The notes beneath the pieces are model-generated. The model was not told where the DNA came from. It saw only the letters and a list, made by a program, of their open reading frames with translations, and ran no database searches. Of a stretch of DNA of 64,000 nt, positions 784-43,504 are shown in pieces. Location of the stretch: contig NC_133933.1 of the NCBI RefSeq assembly GCF_031877795.1, positions 26,192,029-26,256,028 of the forward strand. The letters are read 5' to 3'. Position numbers and translations under genes: made by a program. Source of the DNA: Strix aluco. Lineage: Eukaryota > Chordata > Aves > Strigiformes > Strigidae. Each line of letters opens with the position of its first letter. Within the stretch, counting starts at the first letter, position 1.

Positions 784-20650
<19,867 letters not shown>

Positions 20651-23800: not shown

Positions 23801-24960
23801 ATTGGGGGTGGGTGTTTGAGTTTTTAACCTAAAGTTAATTCACCTTGGGAAGTCTTAAGGCCAGCAGGGACAGTTGGTCAGCTCAGGTTATCAGTATTAT
23901 TATCTTATCTATGGCTGTACTGATGTAATTTCCTTCCGTTTTATCTTGTAGCTAACTGTGTGTATATATGTACACAGATGTGCATTTCAAACAAAAACTG
24001 GATCATAAAATTTTCAAGGAAGGCACCTGGTCTTATCATCCATATTGCCTAGTGTGCTATTAGCAGCTAGTTTTCCTTCACCATGGTTTGTGAGTGCGCA
24101 TAAACTGTGCGTACACTCAAGAGCTCAGCAGGTACTACAATGAGTGACAAAAAATAGTTACTGCATCAGGTTCTTACTCTGTTCCAGAAATGGCATCAAG
24201 TACAAGCTAGGACTTCTGCAGCTCTTATTTCCCCCTTAACTTCTTGTTGTGATTTTCCCAAATCTGACCCTTCCTTGCAAGTGTATGAAGATTACTTTGG
24301 GATTTTGAGATAGTCAGGGGTTTTCTAAATGGGCAATAAGCAATGCGCTTTAGGTTTATTGTTAAGGCTCAACTTCCGTGTCTACTGGCTGCATATTTAG
24401 AAAATGGCCTCCAACTTTGCTCCATTTCCATGGGCAGTGTTAAAACGTGCTAAAAGTACAAGCAGTTGAAAACTCCAGACTGATAAAATGGAAAATCAAT
24501 TCAGTTGTCTTTGAGGCTGGCTCTGTGGACAAAACGTTCAACGACCCTCACAAGCAGTTCACATTTACCATGTTCTTAAAAATAATGTCCATCCAGCATG
24601 GATTTCAAATGTCTTCTTCCACAGGCACGTAGTAGTATTTTCTCAGTACTAAAGTTACCGGCAACCGAAATGCTGAAACAGACATCAGAGGAGAATTTTA
24701 TGCAAAAGAAATGCCTCTCTAACTGCTTAAAATTCTGAGCCACCTTCTTGTGCCTTCCTGTCTGGGCCTTACTCAGTGTCTCAGGACAGTGCCATTGGGT
24801 AGAGTAGCAAGTGCTGGTGCTTCCAGTAGTTTCCCTTGGTTTATTTTTGGTTTTGTAGAAATAAAAAAAGCCTCCTGAGGGTGGAACCCCTACAGGACTG
24901 GAGTCTTCAGGCTGTCTTCACATGACAAATCTTGCTAAACTGCCCTTTAAACTGATTTAT
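20876..24960. other. Intergenic region between EPRS1 and the SLC30A10-like exon
   Basis: About 4.1 kb with no recognisable exon. It has an A-run at about 21549-21564 and a T-run at 22796-22810. Open stretches of 60-70 codons occur but have no splice context or recognisable protein. AT-rich and unremarkable. Confidence 0.6.
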
Positions 24961-24975
24961 TGCTTTACTGCTTCC

Positions 24976-24983
24976 TATAAAAG
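24976..24983 (+). promoter_or_regulatory. Candidate TATA box for the SLC30A10-like exon
   Basis: TATAAAAG lies 124 bases before the ATG at 25100. A start site about 25-30 bases downstream would give a 5' leader of roughly 95 bases without an upstream ATG in frame. There is no CpG island here, unlike the SLC30A10 promoter. The call is based on match and position only. Confidence 0.4.
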
Positions 24984-25099
24984 TGGCTCCTGCATGTGAG
25001 CAATGCTGACAGGTGAAGGGCAGAATCGAGGGCAGTGAATTGCTCCTTGCACAGCTCTGTCTTGCAGAACCTCAGAGTAAGGGGAAGAGAGCAGCAGAA

Positions 25100-25552
25100 A
25101 TGGGCCGCTACTCGGGCAGGAGCATCAGGCTCATCCTCATGTCTGTGGTGAGCCTCGTGGTTTTTGCTGTTGAGATCTCAGTAGGCTACGTTGGCAATTC
25201 TCTTTCCTTAGCTTCAGATGCCTTTGCTGTTCTCTCTCACTTGATCTCCATGATCATCGGTTTGTTCGGTGTCAGGTTCAGTCGTATCAGATGGCACAAG
25301 GCTAACACTTTCGGCTTCAGCCGGGCAGATGTGCTGGGAGCTTTTGGCAACTCTGTTTTTGCCACCGCTCTGATGTTTAGCATCTTCATTGAGGCAATCA
25401 AGAGGTTTATCAATCCTCAGAAGACTGAGAAAGCACTGCTCGTCCTCATTGTCGGGATTGCAGGTCTGTTCTTCAATGTGTTCAACTACGTTATCTTCAT
25501 GGACTGCTGTTACTGTCATGCACCCCAAGGAGACACCGAAACAGGTAAATAA
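25100..25552 (+). CDS. SLC30A10-like orphan first exon (ZnT family, TM1-TM4 half)
   Basis: The ATG at 25100 has G at -3 and +4; the open frame continues upstream but begins only with GTG. The peptide opens MGRYSGRSIRLILM and aligns end to end with SLC30A10 exon 1 at roughly 45% identity by eye, with landmarks GYVGNSLSLASDAF, FGFSRADVLGAFGNSVF, EAIKRF and LLVLIVGIAGLFFNVFNY. It contains four predicted membrane segments (about residues 10-30, 36-56, 79-100, 112-133). A GTAAAT donor at 25545 follows ACA G, the same phase-1 position as the SLC30A10 exon 1 donor (GCA G). Unspliced, translation stops at TAA 25550-25552, giving 150 aa. Oddities: no TM5/TM6 or C-terminal domain exon is visible before SLC30A10; TM2 has Ala43 and His47 where SLC30A10 has Asn43 and Asp47; and the loop after TM4 has Cys/His (CCYCH) rather than an Arg run. 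The absence of any stop or frameshift at this divergence argues for long-term selection. It may be a tandem SLC30A10 paralogue with lost or unrecognised later exons, a truncated-protein gene, or a young pseudogene of an old paralogue. Confidence 0.7.
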   Translation: MGRYSGRSIRLILMSVVSLVVFAVEISVGYVGNSLSLASDAFAVLSHLISMIIGLFGVRFSRIRWHKANTFGFSRADVLGAFGNSVFATALMFSIFIEAIKRFINPQKTEKALLVLIVGIAGLFFNVFNYVIFMDCCYCHAPQGDTETGK

Positions 25553-26390: not shown

Positions 26391-29300
26391 GCAAACATAT
26401 TTGTAAAAATAGAAATATTTCAGTTGGGATAGGAACCAGACATTTGCAATGCATTAACTGGACATCCTGGGGGGAAAGCTGAAAGAACCCATCTAATAAA
26501 GCAGCTGCTGTTATGTACTGCTCTAGGTGAGGTAAGGTAAGTCTTATATTTGACTTTCAGGCTGGACAGGTCTTTGGAGCTAAAAATTGAAAGTTTTTTA
26601 GTTTACATTTCAGTGTTTAATGTGTTTTCTGTAGAACTTAAAATGAAAAAGATTTCTGTTCATTATTAAAGGTACCTCCAGATGATACTGAAGCGTTAAC
26701 TTTACTGGTGTATAACACTAAAACCAGTTTCACAACTTACTTTGCTGCCTGTTTGTTTCGATGCCCAACTGTTTAAAATTTGAGCTGCTCTTAGACTAAA
26801 GTGGTGATATGTAATTCACAGGGGGATTTAATGCACTTTTATGTTAGGAACCATCAGCAATTCCTGACAAAGTCTCTGTTTATGATGGCTTCTTGGAAGA
26901 CAACTTCCAAAATTGTGCCTCTGTGTGAAGTCAGGGAGGAGGAACACATTGGCACTTAAAAACCAAAGACAGAGTGTCAGGCAATTAGGAAATTAACTGA
27001 AATTAATGGCAAATGTTTAGGTAAACGCTGTTCTCGCTGGATTTCCAGGGTCCTGCTCCTAACAACTCTCTGGGACAACACAGCCATCCCTCTCCCTCCA
27101 ATAGACTCACATCCAGATACCTGACAACTCCACTTTGCATTCAACTGAATTTCAGTTGCATAAGCCAGGGATGAATTTTGTACCATCCCATAAACACAGT
27201 GTGTAGATTTGTCGGTGGTTTTGCCTCTCTATTTCTGATACAGTGAATATCTGCTTGTGGTAGTGTCTACAGGCAAGACAATGTCATTTTATACTGTGGA
27301 GGGAATGCTCCTTTCTTCGGGACTTGATTTTATAATCCACACTTAAGTAAAATTTCACATTTATTTCCTGTAATTCTCTCTATTCAGCCTGAGTGGGATT
27401 TTTATTACATTTCTTTCAAAAGAAATGTTATTCCCCAAATAGCTGTACTCTGACAAGTACACTTATACGCTTTATGTGTATTTTATGTATAGATTAAAAC
27501 ACATGAAAAAAGAGGGATTCCACCTCTCTCTCTTGTCATGCTGTGTATGAGGAAAAGATACTCTTTCCTGGAGACAGAAGTCAAGGTAAATTTTCAAGTA
27601 CGTCAGCACCATTAGTAGAAAATTACAGTGGATGGACATGGTCTCTGAATCCTGCTGGCGTAATCCGACTGTCCACAGGCAATGCCCTCAGTGACACCTG
27701 AGCAATCTCCTGACATCAGTGACGGTTTGCTGGAGGGTAAAGGTTTGTAGAGTAGCCCTCTACCTCTTAGGCTTTCTGGGGAAGTGGGAGAGCTGCCTTC
27801 AAATCTCTGTTCCCCAAGCAGTGAATGGATTTAAACAGCACTCTCCCTTCTTGTATGTGATTGTTTGCATTGCTTTGAAAAATATAAAGCAAAAAATAGA
27901 GTGAGCAGTTCAGTTGTCTAGTGCTGTATTGTGGGTGCTGAGGGCAATGGGAACATCTAAATCCACTGAAGCAAATTCTTCCACGTGGATTAGTGCCACG
28001 ATTAATCGCAACAGTCAGGAGTTCACCTTAGTCCTGTTGCATGGTCTACTGTCAGGGATGGAAAACTTAGCTGGTGGGTTTTCTAGATGCTGCTGACAGC
28101 AGGGACAGAGCGAGCCATGCCTAGCTATGCTAGCATTGCTAGCAAGGTCTGAGATCTGGTGGACACAGAGGGTGGTGTTTGCAGGTGCCAACCTACCACT
28201 CCATCCTTTTCCCTTTTGCTACTTCTTTACTCCTCATTTAGCTCATTGCAACATCCACGCCTCAGGTTCTTACCTCAGTACAAATATTCTTGTTGAGGAT
28301 GTATAAATGTGTTTTTCCAAGTTGCCATCCCTGCTTATCCAGGCATACCCAATTTCCCTCCTTCACCTATCAGCTGGGTTTGTTTTGCCTCTCACTCCTT
28401 ACTCTTCCGTCTGTCCCCCTTCTCTTTTTTCTGGTTCTTGCTACCCTTTTGCTCTGTGTCCAACTCCCTGAGTTTTCATCTCCTGCCATCCCCCTTTGCC
28501 TCTCTCTCTAGATCATTCAAATTCCTGTCTGTCCCCTCTGCCAGCTGTAAGCATCCATCTCTTCCCACGAGGTTAAACTGAGGTCTCTCTGCCCTCTAGG
28601 TCCATCTTTGTACTTGTTTCAGACAGTGCAGTTTCCCGTGCTACGTTAGGACTAAGAGGAGAGGTCAGCAAGAGTACAGGGAGGATGTGCCCCTGTTTGT
28701 TCTTTTGATGCTGGCCCAGAGCAGCCATTACAGGTATAAAATATTTCTACACTCTAAAGGAACTGCTGCATAGAAGTACTTGGGCCAGCTGGGCCATCTG
28801 TGGCGGTGTGGAGGGCAGCACAGACTAGTTACTGCTTTGACTTAAAAACCAGGAAATACTTCTTAAAACATAGAAGTATTAAAGCTTCCCTGGGAAACTT
28901 TTGCCAGAAGTTGACATTCACAAAACTCTTTTCTTACTGTTGCTGCTGGAAATGTCAGAGCAGCTTTAGCCAGAGTTTTCTGACAATTTTGAGGTCTTCC
29001 ATCTTACGCAGAAAGTTTTGGCACAAAAATGAAGAATATGGCAAAGTAATAAGCAGCTGAAAAAAATCAGGCTCTTTTAATAAATACCAGACAACTTTAA
29101 TACTGGCCATACCTTTTATAGTCAGTCATAAAAATACAGAAGCCTGTTTTACTGCACACTGAAATCAGCTTACTCATGTTTGTGTAGTTCACTGTAATTG
29201 TCTCTTCTACTTATTTATATACTGTTAAACTGTTAGGAGGGGCACAGTTTGTAAAGCACCATATTAGTCTGATTATAGTAATTCTCTGTTTGTCTTGAGA

Positions 29301-31854: not shown

Positions 31855-32000
31855 GGGAAACTTAACAGAACTACACTTTTTAAAAAGTGAATTATCAAGT
31901 AGTTGAAATATTCAGGGAAGCACTTACCCAGGTGCTAGAGCAAATACTGACTGGATATGTCTTAAAGTATGTAAAATGTTCCTTTTTGGGTTTTTTTGTG

Positions 32001-32374
32001 GTTGTTCAGCCTAGAGAAGAGAAGGCTCTGGGGAGACCTTACAGTGCTTAAAGGGGCCTACAGGAAAGATGGGGAGGGACTCTTCATCAGGGGGTGTACT
32101 GATAGGATGAGGGGTAATGGTTTTAAATTGAAAGAGGGTAGATTTAGATTAGATATAAGGAAGAAATTCTTTACTGTGAGGGTGGTGAGACACTGGCACA
32201 GGTTGCCCAGAGCAGTGGTGGCTGCCCCCTCCCTGGCAGTGTTCAAGGCCAGGTTGGACGGGGCTTTGGGCAATCTGGTCTAGTGGAAGGTGTCCCTGCC
32301 CACGGCAGGGGGGGTGGAACTGAGTGATCTTTAAAGGTCCCTTTCAACCAAAACCATTCTGTGATTCTATGATT
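32001..32374 (+). mobile_element. CR1 LINE 3' end fragment, sense orientation
   Basis: The plus-strand sequence encodes the CR1 RT C-terminal end ([60 protein letters not shown]), then the CR1 3' UTR ending ACCATTCTGTGATTCTATGA near 32372. It starts truncated inside the LFSLEKRRLWG segment. About 370 bp; in the opposite orientation to the CR1 in EPRS1. The frame before KDGEGLF shows small deletions, so it is non-functional. Confidence 0.93.
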
Positions 32375-37119: not shown

Positions 37120-38040
37120 CGCCTTTGCCCAGCGCGGCGGCCCCCGCGCCCGGATGGCTCTGCCCACCCGCGCGGGACCTTCCCCAGCCGCCGCGCCAGG
37201 GCCGCGCCTCCGCACGGCCGCTTTAGCGCCTCTTGATTTCGGATTTCATTGTTTTCCTCCCACCCGCGGTCCTCGCTACCGACCCCTGAGCCCCGGGGGC
37301 TGCGCGGCGGCGGGGCGGTGGCGGGGCGGGGCGGGGGCCGGGTCCGTCCCCGCGGGCAGGGCGGCGGGCGGGGCCTGGCGCGGCGGGCGGCGGCGTTAAG
37401 GGCAGGGGCGGCCGCACTTGTTGCGGGCCGGCGGCTGGGCATGCCCCGGCGCTAACGGGGGCGAGGGGCGCCGGTGGGACCGGCCGCCGCCATGGGGCGG
37501 TACTCAGGGAAGACGTGCCGCCTCATCTTCATGCTGGTGCTCACCGTCGGCTTCTTCGTGGCCGAGCTGGTGTCGGGCTACCTGGGCAACTCCATCGCGC
37601 TGGTGTCCGACTCCTTCAACATGCTCTCGGACCTCATCTCTCTCTGCGTGGGCCTCTCCACGGGGCGCATCGCCCGCCGCAGCCGCCGGGGCCCCCGCGC
37701 CACCTACGGCTACAGCCGCGCCGAGGCGGTGGGCGCCCTCAGCAACGCCGTCTTCCTCACCGCCCTCTGCTTCGTCGTCTGCGTGGAGGCCATCCTCCGC
37801 CTCGCCCGGCCCGAGGCCATCGATGATCCCCAGCTGGTGCTCATCGTCGGCACCCTCGGCCTCGCCGTCAACCTCGTGGGGCTCCTCGTCTTCCAGGACT
37901 GGGGCGCCTGCTGCCGCCGCCGCCGCCGTCGTCGCCCGCCCGCCTCGCCGCCCGCCGCCGCCACGCTGCAGCCCGTGCCCGGCGGCGCCCCGACGGGGGA
38001 GGCGGATGAAGCAGGTGCCTTTCGGCTGCATCCTCGCCGC
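37120..38040 (+). promoter_or_regulatory. SLC30A10: CpG island and GC-box promoter of SLC30A10
   Basis: GC content and CpG density rise sharply at about 37.12 kb and stay high to the end of exon 1, in contrast to the AT-rich surroundings. Several Sp1-type GC boxes are visible: GGGGCGG at 37312-37318, 37323-37329 and 37328-37334, and GGGCGGGG at 37366-37373. No TATA box lies close to the ATG. This is typical of a CpG-island promoter, with the start site probably between about 37330 and 37450. Confidence 0.8.
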
Positions 38041-41000
38041 CTCGCCTCGCCACCCGGCCTTCCCCTCGTGTCCCGCACCTTTCCCCTTCCCTCCACCCTT
38101 CCCCATCCCTCCCTGTCCCCTCTGTCCCTCCCGTTTGTCCCCAGAACCCGCCAAGCTGCCGGGCCCATCCTCTGGGCCCTTTCTGAGCCCCAAACCCACT
38201 CGTGAGCCCCGGGGATTTCTCTGACCTCACTCTGACACCCGCCGTCTCTTTCACCTTGTACTTTACACTGGGCTGCTGGGCGTCCCCTCGGGATGGGAGA
38301 AGGAGGCGTTGCTCAGAGAGTGGCGTGGAAAATGTTTTGGTTTGTTTTGTTTTTTTTTTTTTTTTCTTCTCCTCATGTTTGAAATAAGTTGGTTTTGAGA
38401 AGGTTGATGTTTTTTCTGTTTGTAGAACTTATACACAACACAGCGTTTCTTCTTTGAATGCAGGTGATTCACCAAATGACCAAAAAAGCCCTGAAGAGGG
38501 GCCTGAGAAGAAAAAAGAAAAAAAGTCTGAAGCCTTGAACATCAGAGGTACAGCATGGGAGTATACTGCTAATATTATATTAACTTTAAACACTTTCTGG
38601 TTTTCAGATTTTTTTTTCTTTCTTTTTTTTTTTTTTTTTTCCCAAGTATCAGTTAAGAAATGGAGCAAAAGCCCAGGACTCTTCTATGTATATAAGCCCT
38701 GTTATCTTTAGCAAAAAGATTTTGGTTGTATGAAATAACATTGATAATAACAACATAATGTGATGCTGATTTGGCTCCAAGTGTGCTCGCATTTTGATTT
38801 TAATTCTGTAGAAGAGTGCAGCTGAACTTTTTGGAAAGGGGGCAAAGCCTACTGCACTAAGCTCAAGTCACAAGAGGCTTTATAGGAAGGTAAAGCAGAT
38901 AGCTATGAGGCACTTCTTTGAGTGTCACTGCTGTCATAGTTGAGCAGTTTTCAACTTTCAAATGCTTTTGGGCAGAAAACAGAATTTCTTTAAATCCTGA
39001 GGTTGATAATGTTTTGTTGTCAACACAAGGAAGAAGGTGCTGAAACTAGTGCTTCAGCACGTTGTTTTTCCAGGTCCTTGGACTGTGAACCTCTGCCTGA
39101 GAGAGTCTGTGATGGGATCACCCCTTCTTAGGTTGTAATTGGGCAGGTCTCTGGGTATATGTGGAGTGAAACAGTATAGCTACTTTAGAAATAAATTAAC
39201 CAAGCGTCTCTCTCCCTCTCTCTGTAGGTGTTTATACGCATAGATGTTTACATACCTATTCTGAGCCAAAAGCAGATATCTGAGTATGTTAGACATTGAG
39301 TTTGTCCCCAAAACAGGGGGGCTGACAAGGGCTGTCAGAAAGCTGAAACAGAATGGTAGTTTCGGGCTTCTTATGGTCACTTATCAGCATCTGAAATTCC
39401 TCCAAAGTCCTGTAAATTGACATCACATGAATTCAGCTTAAGAGGTTGACATGGCCACCAGGCACCTGTTTGGTTTTTTTTCTGGTGTGTGTGTCTGTCT
39501 ATCTGTCTTTCAAAAGTGTTTTCAGAGTTACAGAAATGTATCTCTAAGGGAAGACACTTTGGAAATCAAACCATGTGCTAGAGTCACAATACTTTCCTGA
39601 CTGTCTAGAAATTGGTGTCACTGGATATTATGGCATTATAGTGGTAAGATTATTGGAGCAGGAAAAGAAAACTGTCACTTTCAGGAATGGAGGAGAGAAG
39701 AATAAGAAACTGAAGAGTATATTTTAGAGAAGGCCTTACTTGCCTGAATGATAGTGCTTAGGCATAATGATGCTGGGAACTTTCAGAAATGATTGAAGGA
39801 TAAGGAGTTTTGTGTCAGTTATTTTAAGATACCTGTCGGCTTTGATTTTAAAAAGAGGATTTTTTTTTTTTTAAAGTGCTACTTTAGTATGTCATCTTTG
39901 CAAAATCTATTTTTATTGTCCTTACAAATATTCCTTGCTTCTGTAGCCAGTGCTACAGCTATGCGTCTTTAAAATTCTGTCTCAAATCTATGTTTTTCCT
40001 TTGAAGTGAGTTACATAGCTATACTTACTTCATAATTGCTTGGCAAAATTTCTGTACGTCATATAATTGGAGCCTCCCTGAAAAACATGGCTGCACAAAA
40101 TGGATTGGCAGAGGAACTGCTTCCTTGATTTTTAAAAGTGGTAGGAACAGGAATTCATACATTCTGCCTGACAGGGTTAATTATTGTAGTGTAAAATTAC
40201 TCCTTTTACTTGAGCATATGCAGAGTAGTTCAGACTTTCCAACACAAGCTGTTGGAAACCTACCTGTGTTACCTATGGTCTTACCACACTGCTTTATTTA
40301 ATTTAATAAAAATTCATTTTCAGTTCTGTCTTATAACCATAGCTTTTGGGGATCAACAGGGAAGTGGGTTCATTTCTGTCTAGGCCCTCATTATGTGATG
40401 TGTAACCAGGACGTACATATTAATAGTGTTAGTAATGTAAAATAAGCATTTTCCAAATTCTGTATTCTCAATTCATAATTTATCAACCTTTTCATTAATT
40501 CAAAAGAAGACTTTCTGAAACACTTCCCTGTTCTTTTTAAGCTGTGCTCTCTAGTTAGTTGCCTTGGAAATTGCATCCTGCCTGTCCCTCTTGTTAGTGC
40601 AATAGCTGATAGCCCATGCTGAATCGGGATTATTTGTAAATGAAAAGGAAACACTGCAACACTGTTAGGAGGAGTAAAACCCTGTGGGAGTCTGCCAAAT
40701 GGGGCAGAACATGCCTTACGCCAGCAGAAAGAGCTGGACTCACTGGAAGCTTGTACTTTCTTATCTGACCCAAGCGATTCGGAGGAACTCTAGTGGTTAT
40801 TGCCTTCACTTCTCACACAGAAGATCAATGTTCATGCACAGAGCTGGCAAGTAACAGCAGCACAGGCACAGCTCTAGGTGTAATCCAGTGTCCAGCATCA
40901 CCAAACAGTCAAAACTCTTTGCTGTGTTGTTAATGAGTTTTGGAAGGAGCCTTTTACAACTTCTCCAGCCCAGTGCAAGTGATTAAATTGGAGTGAAGCT

Positions 41001-43504
41001 CTTGAAAGTGCTTGTCAAAGGGATGTTAAAAGGAGGTGGTCCATTTTATTCTCTCACAGGCTTTGAATAAAAAGTATTGGCAAAGAAATTAACTTCATAT
41101 ATTTAGAGATGTAATGAATTAGGCATGGGTCGGAATGAAATCTGAGTCTGAACAGTAAAGACTGACAGAACTGGAGTGCATTTGGGCAATGATTGGAAGT
41201 GGGAAGATTATGTAAAGTAGCAAAAAAAAGGAAAAAAGGAGTTCTTAGATTATTGCAACTTTATAGTAAGAAGACTGCTTTGGTCACTGTAGTTGAAAGG
41301 GCAGCTAAGAATGTGGTATTACAAGAGCCTGTTTTGTGTCTTTACCTTTTGTGCAAAAACATGTCTACAGATGTAGAAAGTGGTACCCAGTGTTCCTCTC
41401 AATTTAGAGTAGTCCAGGCACATATTAAACTGTGTCATCCATGTGACTGACTCTCAAACCAGATTCTGATTTTTTTGGGGTCTGAGGGTCTAGTGTTGGT
41501 GGAACAGGGTTTAATATGACTAACAATCAAGCTTGATCCAAAAATTGGAGTTTGAGGGCATTTGGAGCCATAGGAATGGGCTTAGGTTTCACTTAGGTAA
41601 TTTTTCAGATTTCAACAGTGTCATAGAAGTGCTGGATGAGAATAAATGTTACTGGGGGTGGTCTGTGGCTCTCTTAGCTTCCAGGGTAGAACGGGTAGGT
41701 TTAGTCATCAATTTTTAATTGAGAATTGAGATTTAATGTGCCAGGATCTCTTAATAATCTGCAGGCATTTAAGCAAACACATTTTAGGTTGCCATGGCAT
41801 TGCAGTTGGACTGCAGTTGCTAGCATACCCTACATGTTTAATAATGCATCCCACTTAAGCAGCTGTGGTTCAGAGTCAGTATTTCCCTTGCTGTTTTGTT
41901 CTGAAAACTGTTATTGAAAACTCCAGGTATGATGTTAGTGCCTGAAATATTACGTTTTTCATGTCAAGTAGAACAGACTTGAAAAATGCAGCATTACTCT
42001 CCTCCTACCCCCCCAAAAAATGCCACCCCTAATGGAAATTATGCCATTTGTTTCAGGTGTTCTTTTGCATGTTATGGGAGATGCACTGGGATCTGTGGTC
42101 GTGGTAGTTGCTGCTACAATCTTCCATGTACTTCCTCTGGGGAATGCTCCTTGTAATTGGCAGTGCTACATCGATCCAAGCCTGACAATAATTATGGTGT
42201 TCATCATCTTGTCTTCTGCATTCCCACTTATCAAGGAGACTTCAATTATTTTGTTGCAGATGGTTCCCAAAGGTGTTAATATGCAACTACTGAGTAAGTA
42301 AAATATGTTGTTGAAATGCTATTAATTTTAATGATATGCTTCAATGCATATGTTATTTCTGGAATGACATGTTTGGATTATTTACTCATAATAGCTCTAA
42401 ATTCTCAAGAACTGTGAGGAATAGTCACATGCCTGTGTCTTAGCAACATGACTCAAATCTCTCTGGATTAGTTAAAGCATGTATTTTGAGAATGTGGTAC
42501 TCCAACAATACATCAAAAATACCAGGTCTTGAGCTGTTAATGCTTTGTGTGGGGTGTTTGTGAAAGAAACAATATTGAATTACAGTATTTCCCAACCCTA
42601 CAGCAGCTTCTTCCGAAAGGCTTCCAAAACAGCTTGGAAATTTCCATTGAGGTTGGTTAATTTTGTAGCTCTCCAGCATTGTTCACACAGGTTAATCGTG
42701 GGGTAGCCCTGGCTACTTCTGGAATTCTACCATGCTCAGGGCTAAGGAAACCCGAAGATGTGGGTTTAGCCAAGGAAGTGGTGCTCTAACATTGCTTCTA
42801 TGAACAGCTGGTAAATTGCTATTAGGGAGCCTGAGGGATGGGTGAACCCCAAAGGAGGCCTGCTCCTGTGGTCATCTGGAGGCTGAACTGAAGGCAGCTG
42901 CGAGTAGACATATTTTACTAAGTACAACTCTTTTAAAGAGATAGTTCAGACTGCTGCTTTTGGATAGGGTTCTTAATGAGAAAGCTAGGACACCAAAGCC
43001 TCTAATACCTTTCTCTTATGTCTTCCAGCTGACAGACTAGCTCGTGTCCCAGGGGTTAGCAGCCTTCACGAGGTGCATGTTTGGGAGCTTGCAGGTGGGA
43101 AGAATATTGCTACTCTTCATATCAAGTGCCAAACCCCTACTGATTACCAAGATGCTGCTTATAAAATACGGAAGGTTTTCCATGAAGCAGGGATCCATTC
43201 TGTGACCATCCAGCCCGAGTACATTGACCACAAGACCTCCCAGCTACTGTGCAGCTCACCCTGCATCTCAAAAGCTTGTGACTCTCAGCTGTGCTGCAGT
43301 CAGCGGGAGCCCCCCCTGGCTAAAACTAATGGCTATACTGAGAAAAATGATAGTTGCCTTTCTGCACTGCATAAAGACAATGGTTCAAGTAAAAATGATA
43401 TTGAAATCCCTATTGAGTACCCGCTGGCAGAGAATAGCGTTAAAAATGTGAAAAACTGTGACAGGTCTGATGGCAAATCACAGTTGAGCAGTACACGACT
43501 TTAG
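37492..43504 (+). CDS. SLC30A10: SLC30A10 (ZnT10), manganese/zinc efflux transporter
   Basis: This is a cation diffusion facilitator that exports Mn2+ (and Zn2+) across the plasma membrane. Coding exons are 37492-38014, 38464-38547, 42057-42293 and 43029-43504 (stop TAG), phase 1 at every junction, total 439 aa. The ATG sits in GCCGCCGCCATGG. TM1-4 are in exon 1, TM5-6 in exon 3 and the cytosolic C-terminal domain in exon 4. Metal-site residues are Asn43 and Asp47 in TM2 (SDSFNMLSDLIS) and His207 and Asp211 in TM5 (LLHVMGDALGS). The Asn43 variant, in place of the His used by zinc transporters such as ZnT1, is the ZnT10 signature tied to Mn selectivity. Exon 2 encodes a Lys/Glu-rich piece ending KKSEALNIR. 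Exon 4 has VPGVSSLHEVHVWEL, the CSSPCISKAC Cys motif and an acidic/Ser tail. The loop after TM4 is Arg-rich (seven Arg in a row), not His-rich. The protein is shorter than human (485 aa), mainly in that loop and at the C-terminus. Confidence 0.97.
37908..37972 (+). repeat. SLC30A10: GC-rich trinucleotide tract in SLC30A10 exon 1
   Basis: CGC/CCG triplets encode CCRRRRRRRPPASPPAAA in the cytosolic loop between TM4 and TM5. Imperfect triplet repeats of this type often vary in length between individuals and are easily mis-assembled. No frame disruption is seen here. Confidence 0.75.
38015..38463 (+). other. SLC30A10: SLC30A10 intron 1
   Basis: A short 449-base GT-AG intron (GTGCCT ... TTTGAATGCAG) containing a C/T-rich first half and a T-run at about 38350-38365. 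Reading into it from exon 1 stays open for about 64 codons before the TGA ending at 38205, so retention would not stop translation at once. Confidence 0.85.
38548..42056 (+). other. SLC30A10: SLC30A10 intron 2
   Basis: A 3.5 kb GT-AG intron with a long T-rich tract at about 38609-38640. No transposon or extra exon was recognised. The acceptor is TTTGTTTCAG, and exon 3 follows directly with VLLHVMGDALGS. Confidence 0.8.
42294..43028 (+). other. SLC30A10: SLC30A10 intron 3
   Basis: A 735-base intron with consensus donor GTAAGTA and acceptor TCTTCCAG. The junction splits ACT (Thr) between exons 3 and 4. Nothing else was seen in it. Confidence 0.88.

Follow-up and report, generated by a model that had tools for sequence, protein, structure and literature searches.

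The window analyzed here, a stretch of 64,000 nucleotides of the Strix aluco genome (NC_133933.1, positions 26,192,029 to 26,256,028), contains no N and carries EPRS1, SLC30A10 and, between them on the same strand, a single exon resembling the first exon of SLC30A10, referred to below as exon A (Table 1). The EPRS1 frame ends at 20650; its WHEP domains were matched, and we take its C-terminal peptide to be that of EPRS1. Human EPRS1 has three WHEP repeats. In the linker found here (window 3211-7297, + strand) all five scanned frames matched PF00458, and there seem to be five repeats, one whole and four read as split across neighboring exons. The four SLC30A10 exons, when joined, encoded 439 aa with zero internal stops, all three acceptors end in CAG, and exon 1 matched the solved SLC30A10 chain with an E value of 1.5e-73. 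Frames at 31975-32283 (+) and 9972-10739 (-) resemble the protein ends of CR1 LINEs; a Pfam scan gave no match for the piece 31975-32280 and a single match, below its cut-off, for the piece 10446-10739. A scan of viral contigs matched 7 stretches, none of which was confirmed.

Table 1. Exon A, its putative control signals and the SLC30A10 exons (window positions)
Feature	Position	Strand	Remarks
Candidate TATA box TATAAAA	24976..24982	+	124 bases upstream of the exon A ATG
Exon A	25100..25544	+	148 codons plus 1 base; diverged duplicate of SLC30A10 exon 1; predicted TM1-TM4
5' splice site GTAAAT after CAG	25545..25550	+	phase 1; matrix score 4.88
SLC30A10 exon 1	37492..38014	+	canonical, CpG-rich context
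SLC30A10 exon 2	38464..38547	+	84 bases; exon A is proposed to splice to it
SLC30A10 exon 3	42057..42293	+	bears HxxxDxxxS of metal sites
SLC30A10 exon 4	43029..43504	+	C-terminal part up to stop

The frame of exon A stays open from its ATG until a TAA at 25550-25552, corresponding to 150 aa without splicing. When compared with SLC30A10 exon 1 by BLASTP, 64 of 141 positions were identical and 90 of 141 positive (E 1e-37). The two exons have the MGRYSG start in common, both end at phase 1 donors in homologous position, and the start codon of exon A lies 12,392 bases upstream of that of SLC30A10 exon 1. An intact homologous frame with these features, some 12 kb upstream of SLC30A10, was what the sequence-only reading had described, and this description held up. 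The Pfam profile Cation_efflux (PF01545) of the CDF family matched exon A with an E value of 3.6e-21, but the alignment was confined to the first half of the profile (positions 1-122 of 198). Among solved structures, SLC30A10 was the best match (9kvx, E 8.1e-33; SLC30A1, E 5.5e-25). Structure prediction from three sequences placed helices at 6-32, 35-62, 75-104, and 112-139, although the model was weak (mean pLDDT 54.4, pTM 0.33). The fourth helix is followed by Cys-Cys-Tyr-Cys-His (CCYCH; window 25505-25519, + strand). The loop after this helix is rich in His in other ZnTs; the CCYCH of exon A sits at the start of the loop and is a possible metal-binding cluster.

The base composition of exon A (GC 0.49, CpG observed/expected 0.52) stood out from its flanks (0.405 and 0.19). 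When the genome (1.41 Gb) was searched with the exon A protein, six matches were found among the scored best candidates. Apart from exon A itself, they comprised exon 1 of SLC30A10, an exon of SLC30A1 type lying 3.7 Mb away on this contig, and three weak matches with E values from 0.014 to 0.38. The DNA of exon A matched only itself in a genome search that skips common words. A recent or repeat-borne origin found no support, as both exon A and the 800 bases preceding it matched only themselves in the same kind of search. We conclude that exon A is a real duplicated first exon and that the duplication is probably old.

Exon A was identical to SLC30A10 at 67 of 147 aligned positions and to SLC30A1 at 53 of 132, but a tree did not distinguish between the two placements. 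Among four topologies tested with six sequences, the best had exon A beside ZnT1 (p-AU 0.71), which was indistinguishable from exon A beside both ZnT10s (p-AU 0.483). Support was lower for exon A outside both ZnT10 and ZnT1 (p-AU 0.0555) and for exon A beside the SLC30A10 of this genome alone (p-AU 0.038, p-KH 0.07, p-SH 0.08). A bird-only origin is weakly disfavored by this test, with long-branch attraction as a live caveat.

It had been argued from the sequence that a neutral copy at such divergence should carry stops. This proved too strong: in neutral simulations carried to the observed identity, with indels excluded, 10-11% of runs were stop-free, and in other neutral runs, which assumed a nucleotide distance of 0.23 or 0.45 for the exon A branch, the proportion was 25% or 2%, respectively. 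The open frame by itself therefore proves little, and at a distance of 0.23 the amino acid identity alone gives no sign of selection either. Other features of exon A did depart from the neutral runs. At apolar TM sites (with segment limits that are approximate and were set by us), exon A had gained a polar, charged or Pro residue once, compared to a mean of about 10 in the simulations, and at most 1 in 1500 runs was as low. Its amino acid changes were also more conservative than neutral (P 0.003-0.005), while the tally of positions with a positive score departed less sharply (P about 0.015). The membrane core shows a single length difference, of a whole codon.

Codon-based comparisons pointed in the same direction. 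Over 135 codons, exon A and SLC30A10 differed at 61, 40, and 82 first, second and third positions, respectively, and counting methods gave a dN of approximately 0.5-0.6 and a dS of approximately 1.7-2.2. In a codon model of three sequences of this one genome (exon A, SLC30A10 and the SLC30A1-like gene; 131 codons), an omega of 1 for exon A was rejected with likelihood ratios of 16.8 (p 4e-5, pooled codon frequencies) and 25.1 (p 5e-7, branch-specific frequencies). Synonymous sites were saturated and branch lengths reached their upper bound, which makes the omega value itself (about 0.08) unusable, and we relied on the likelihood ratio alone. Exon A has also kept 23 of the 34 residues invariant among ZnT10, ZnT1, and ZnT7, compared to 21 of 64 at sites that differ between ZnT10 and ZnT1 (Fisher p 0.0013; ancestral differences could account for part of the lower identity at these variable sites) and 39 of 99 at all other compared sites (p 0.005). 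Conversely, 11 of the 34 invariant residues are lost in exon A, Asp47 among them, and only 3 in SLC30A10 exon 1, which indicates that the constraint on exon A is looser. Together, protein-level constraint averaged over the history of exon A is supported; the tests cover that history as a whole and are compatible with a recent loss of function.

The donor of exon A is strong. Scored with a splice-site matrix, it exceeded 3778 of the 3806 GT dinucleotides of the window, the 28 that score as high including the donor itself, and the three SLC30A10 donors all scored lower (1.16, -0.69, and 1.52). Upstream of the exon, the TATAAAA listed in Table 1 is the only TATAWAW in 24100-25099 on either strand. 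Across the 64 kb window the motif occurs 64 times on the + strand, approximately once per 1 kb or 0.12 per 120 bases by chance, and a TATA in this position is thus no commoner than chance. The 1 kb upstream of exon A is CpG-poor (observed/expected 0.22), in contrast to the region upstream of SLC30A10 exon 1, which is CpG-rich (0.93) and has no TATA match. Exon A is possibly driven by a TATA, CpG-poor promoter of its own. VDRE, MRE, and HNF4 motifs were sought upstream of it and none was found, while two HRE-like matches, for which there was no control set, were noted. A pyrimidine-containing stretch ending in CTTGCAG (window 25041-25067, + strand) ends 32 bases before the ATG; it is a candidate 3' splice site, and exon A could follow an upstream non-coding exon.

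We also looked for the rest of a second gene. In tblastn searches of the window, SLC30A10 exons 2, 3, and 4 each recovered themselves, and no second copy was found: the next best E values were 0.046 for exon 2, which is short and Lys-rich, 0.20 for exon 3 and 0.58 for exon 4. Genome searches with exons A, 3, and 4 score only the best candidates, and exon 2 was searched within the window only. With exon 3, the four matches were exon 3 itself, two SLC30A1-like pieces and one with E 0.8. With exon 4, there were five matches: exon 4 itself, the SLC30A1-like gene (42%, E 7e-20), one on another contig with E 0.003 and 29% identity, which contains three stops and was read as chance, and two weaker ones. 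The evidence that the genome lacks another set of exons 3 and 4 is thus strong, if short of conclusive. Since no such set was found and the window contains no N, the duplicated unit appears, as far as visible, to be SLC30A10 exon 1 alone.

These results bear on the earlier proposal of an old tandem paralogue kept by selection. Its age and the selection on it were partly supported, within one genome, but a second gene was not, since second-half exons of its own were found neither in the window nor among the scored genome candidates. A complete paralogue, its exons 2-4 escaping notice through divergence or distance, would fit the retained phase 1 donor and the location between EPRS1 and SLC30A10, and the genome searches score best candidates only; however, the window tblastn and the genome searches with exons 3 and 4 produced no candidate, although the same searches did detect the SLC30A1-like gene at 42-48% identity, and we regard this as the least probable reading, at the far end of the scale. 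Hardly more credible is a stand-alone unspliced gene, read through to the TAA and yielding a 150-aa four-helix half-subunit acting on SLC30A10 or SLC30A1. The frame does stop two codons past the last full codon of exon A, and the nearest downstream AATAAA is at 26495, but a stop two codons into an intron is unremarkable, and a gene that is not spliced has no need to preserve so strong a donor where the homologous exon has its own.

Exon A might instead be an unexpressed relic, i.e., the last survivor of a complete tandem copy or a disused alternative exon that has not yet acquired a stop or frameshift. The replacement by His of Asp47, common to ZnT1, 7, and 10, the further invariant residues lost and the share of neutral runs in which the frame stays open, all seen in one genome, fit this explanation. 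Against it stand the apolar TM pattern, the conservative changes (mean BLOSUM -0.16, compared to -0.69 under neutrality), the rejection of omega = 1, a donor within the best 1% of the GT of the window, and searches of the window and of the scored genome candidates in which no remnants of exons 3-4 were found. We consider a relic unlikely. It is simpler to read exon A as an alternative SLC30A10 first exon, because exon 1 alone appears to be duplicated and its phase and frame match the downstream SLC30A10 exons. The donor that exon A carries agrees in phase with the constant exons; joined on paper, exon A runs in frame into exons 2-4 (413 aa) and equally into exons 3-4 (385 aa). The donor, the homology and the frame all favor this reading, as does the search for other downstream partners, none of which turned up among the scored genome candidates; we consider it reasonably probable.

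As an alternative first exon, exon A would be transcribed from a separate TATA, CpG-poor promoter, with transcription continuing into and past SLC30A10. Splicing would bypass canonical exon 1, itself a first exon that has an ATG, and would join exon A to exon 2. The predicted 413-aa product would differ from the usual one in its TM1-TM4 half, share the remainder with it, and could dimerize with the usual SLC30A10 form via the shared half. No description of a second first exon of SLC30A10 was found in the literature covered, from which most subscription journals and the annotation databases were absent, so that an annotated isoform is possible.

The metal-site residues give some indication of what such an isoform would do. 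For SLC30A10, a Mn site formed by D40, N127, D248, and S252 has been reported, with conflicting results for N43, in the accessible part of a 2026 review (PMC13272668), and residue 43 is tied to the choice between Zn and Mn in the available portion of PMC11633486. Exon A retains E25, D40, and N127, while Ala43 replaces Asn, His47 replaces Asp, and Ile52 replaces Cys. The first-half residues of the Mn site, D40 and N127, are thus present, whereas the TM2 metal ligands of the CDF family (Asn or His at position 43 and Asp at position 47) are not. Exon 3 holds H, D, and S in matching spacing (H207, D211, and S215 of the 439-aa protein of this genome). With D and S from the shared exon 3, an exon A isoform, for which we infer every step from transcription to transport, would keep all four Mn-site residues and have an altered canonical site (N43A, D47H).

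The most likely action, held tentatively, would be that of an isoform that differs in metal choice or in turnover and dimerizes with the usual form. Nearly as likely, though still doubtful, and equally compatible with use of exon A as an alternative exon, is a partner that does not itself transport but modulates SLC30A10 within mixed dimers. The replacement of N43 and D47 and the shared C-terminal half would suit such a role, and ZnT6, which lacks a full metal site, offers a parallel. According to the part of PMC5666860 available, ZnT6 is the auxiliary subunit of the ZnT5-ZnT6 heterodimer; it differs from exon A in being a complete gene of its own, exon A encoding half a protein. The retained D40 and N127 argue against a non-transporting product, as does a structural study cited in the accessible text of PMC13272668, in which Asn43 had no significant effect on Mn transport.

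Compared to the Mn exporter SLC30A10 (ZnT10; CDF/SLC30 family), with which it shares its start, its intron phase, and E25, D40, and N127, exon A has a short tail after TM4 in place of the Arg-rich stretch, along with its divergence in sequence. The arrangement resembles the UGT1, GCNT2, and PCDH clusters, in which, as covered by the accessible part of PMC1885805, duplicated first exons lie upstream of one set of constant exons. Unlike in those clusters, there are two variable exons here, and it is the membrane half of a transporter that would be swapped. A fuller scenario, which we put forward as speculative, is that two swappable TM1-TM4 first exons pre-date the bird-mammal split and were lost in mammals, the changed-site isoform being expressed from a tissue-restricted promoter.

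If exon A is used, the one SLC30A10 gene of this lineage would yield two transporters. Expression studies assuming a single product, such as the transcriptomes of chicken uterus and femur (PMC7385972 and PMC6937697, as far as accessible), could then be measuring a mixture of the two. A natural variant with the Mn site but without Asn43 and Asp47 would also bear on the dispute over residue 43, as set out in the available part of PMC13272668.
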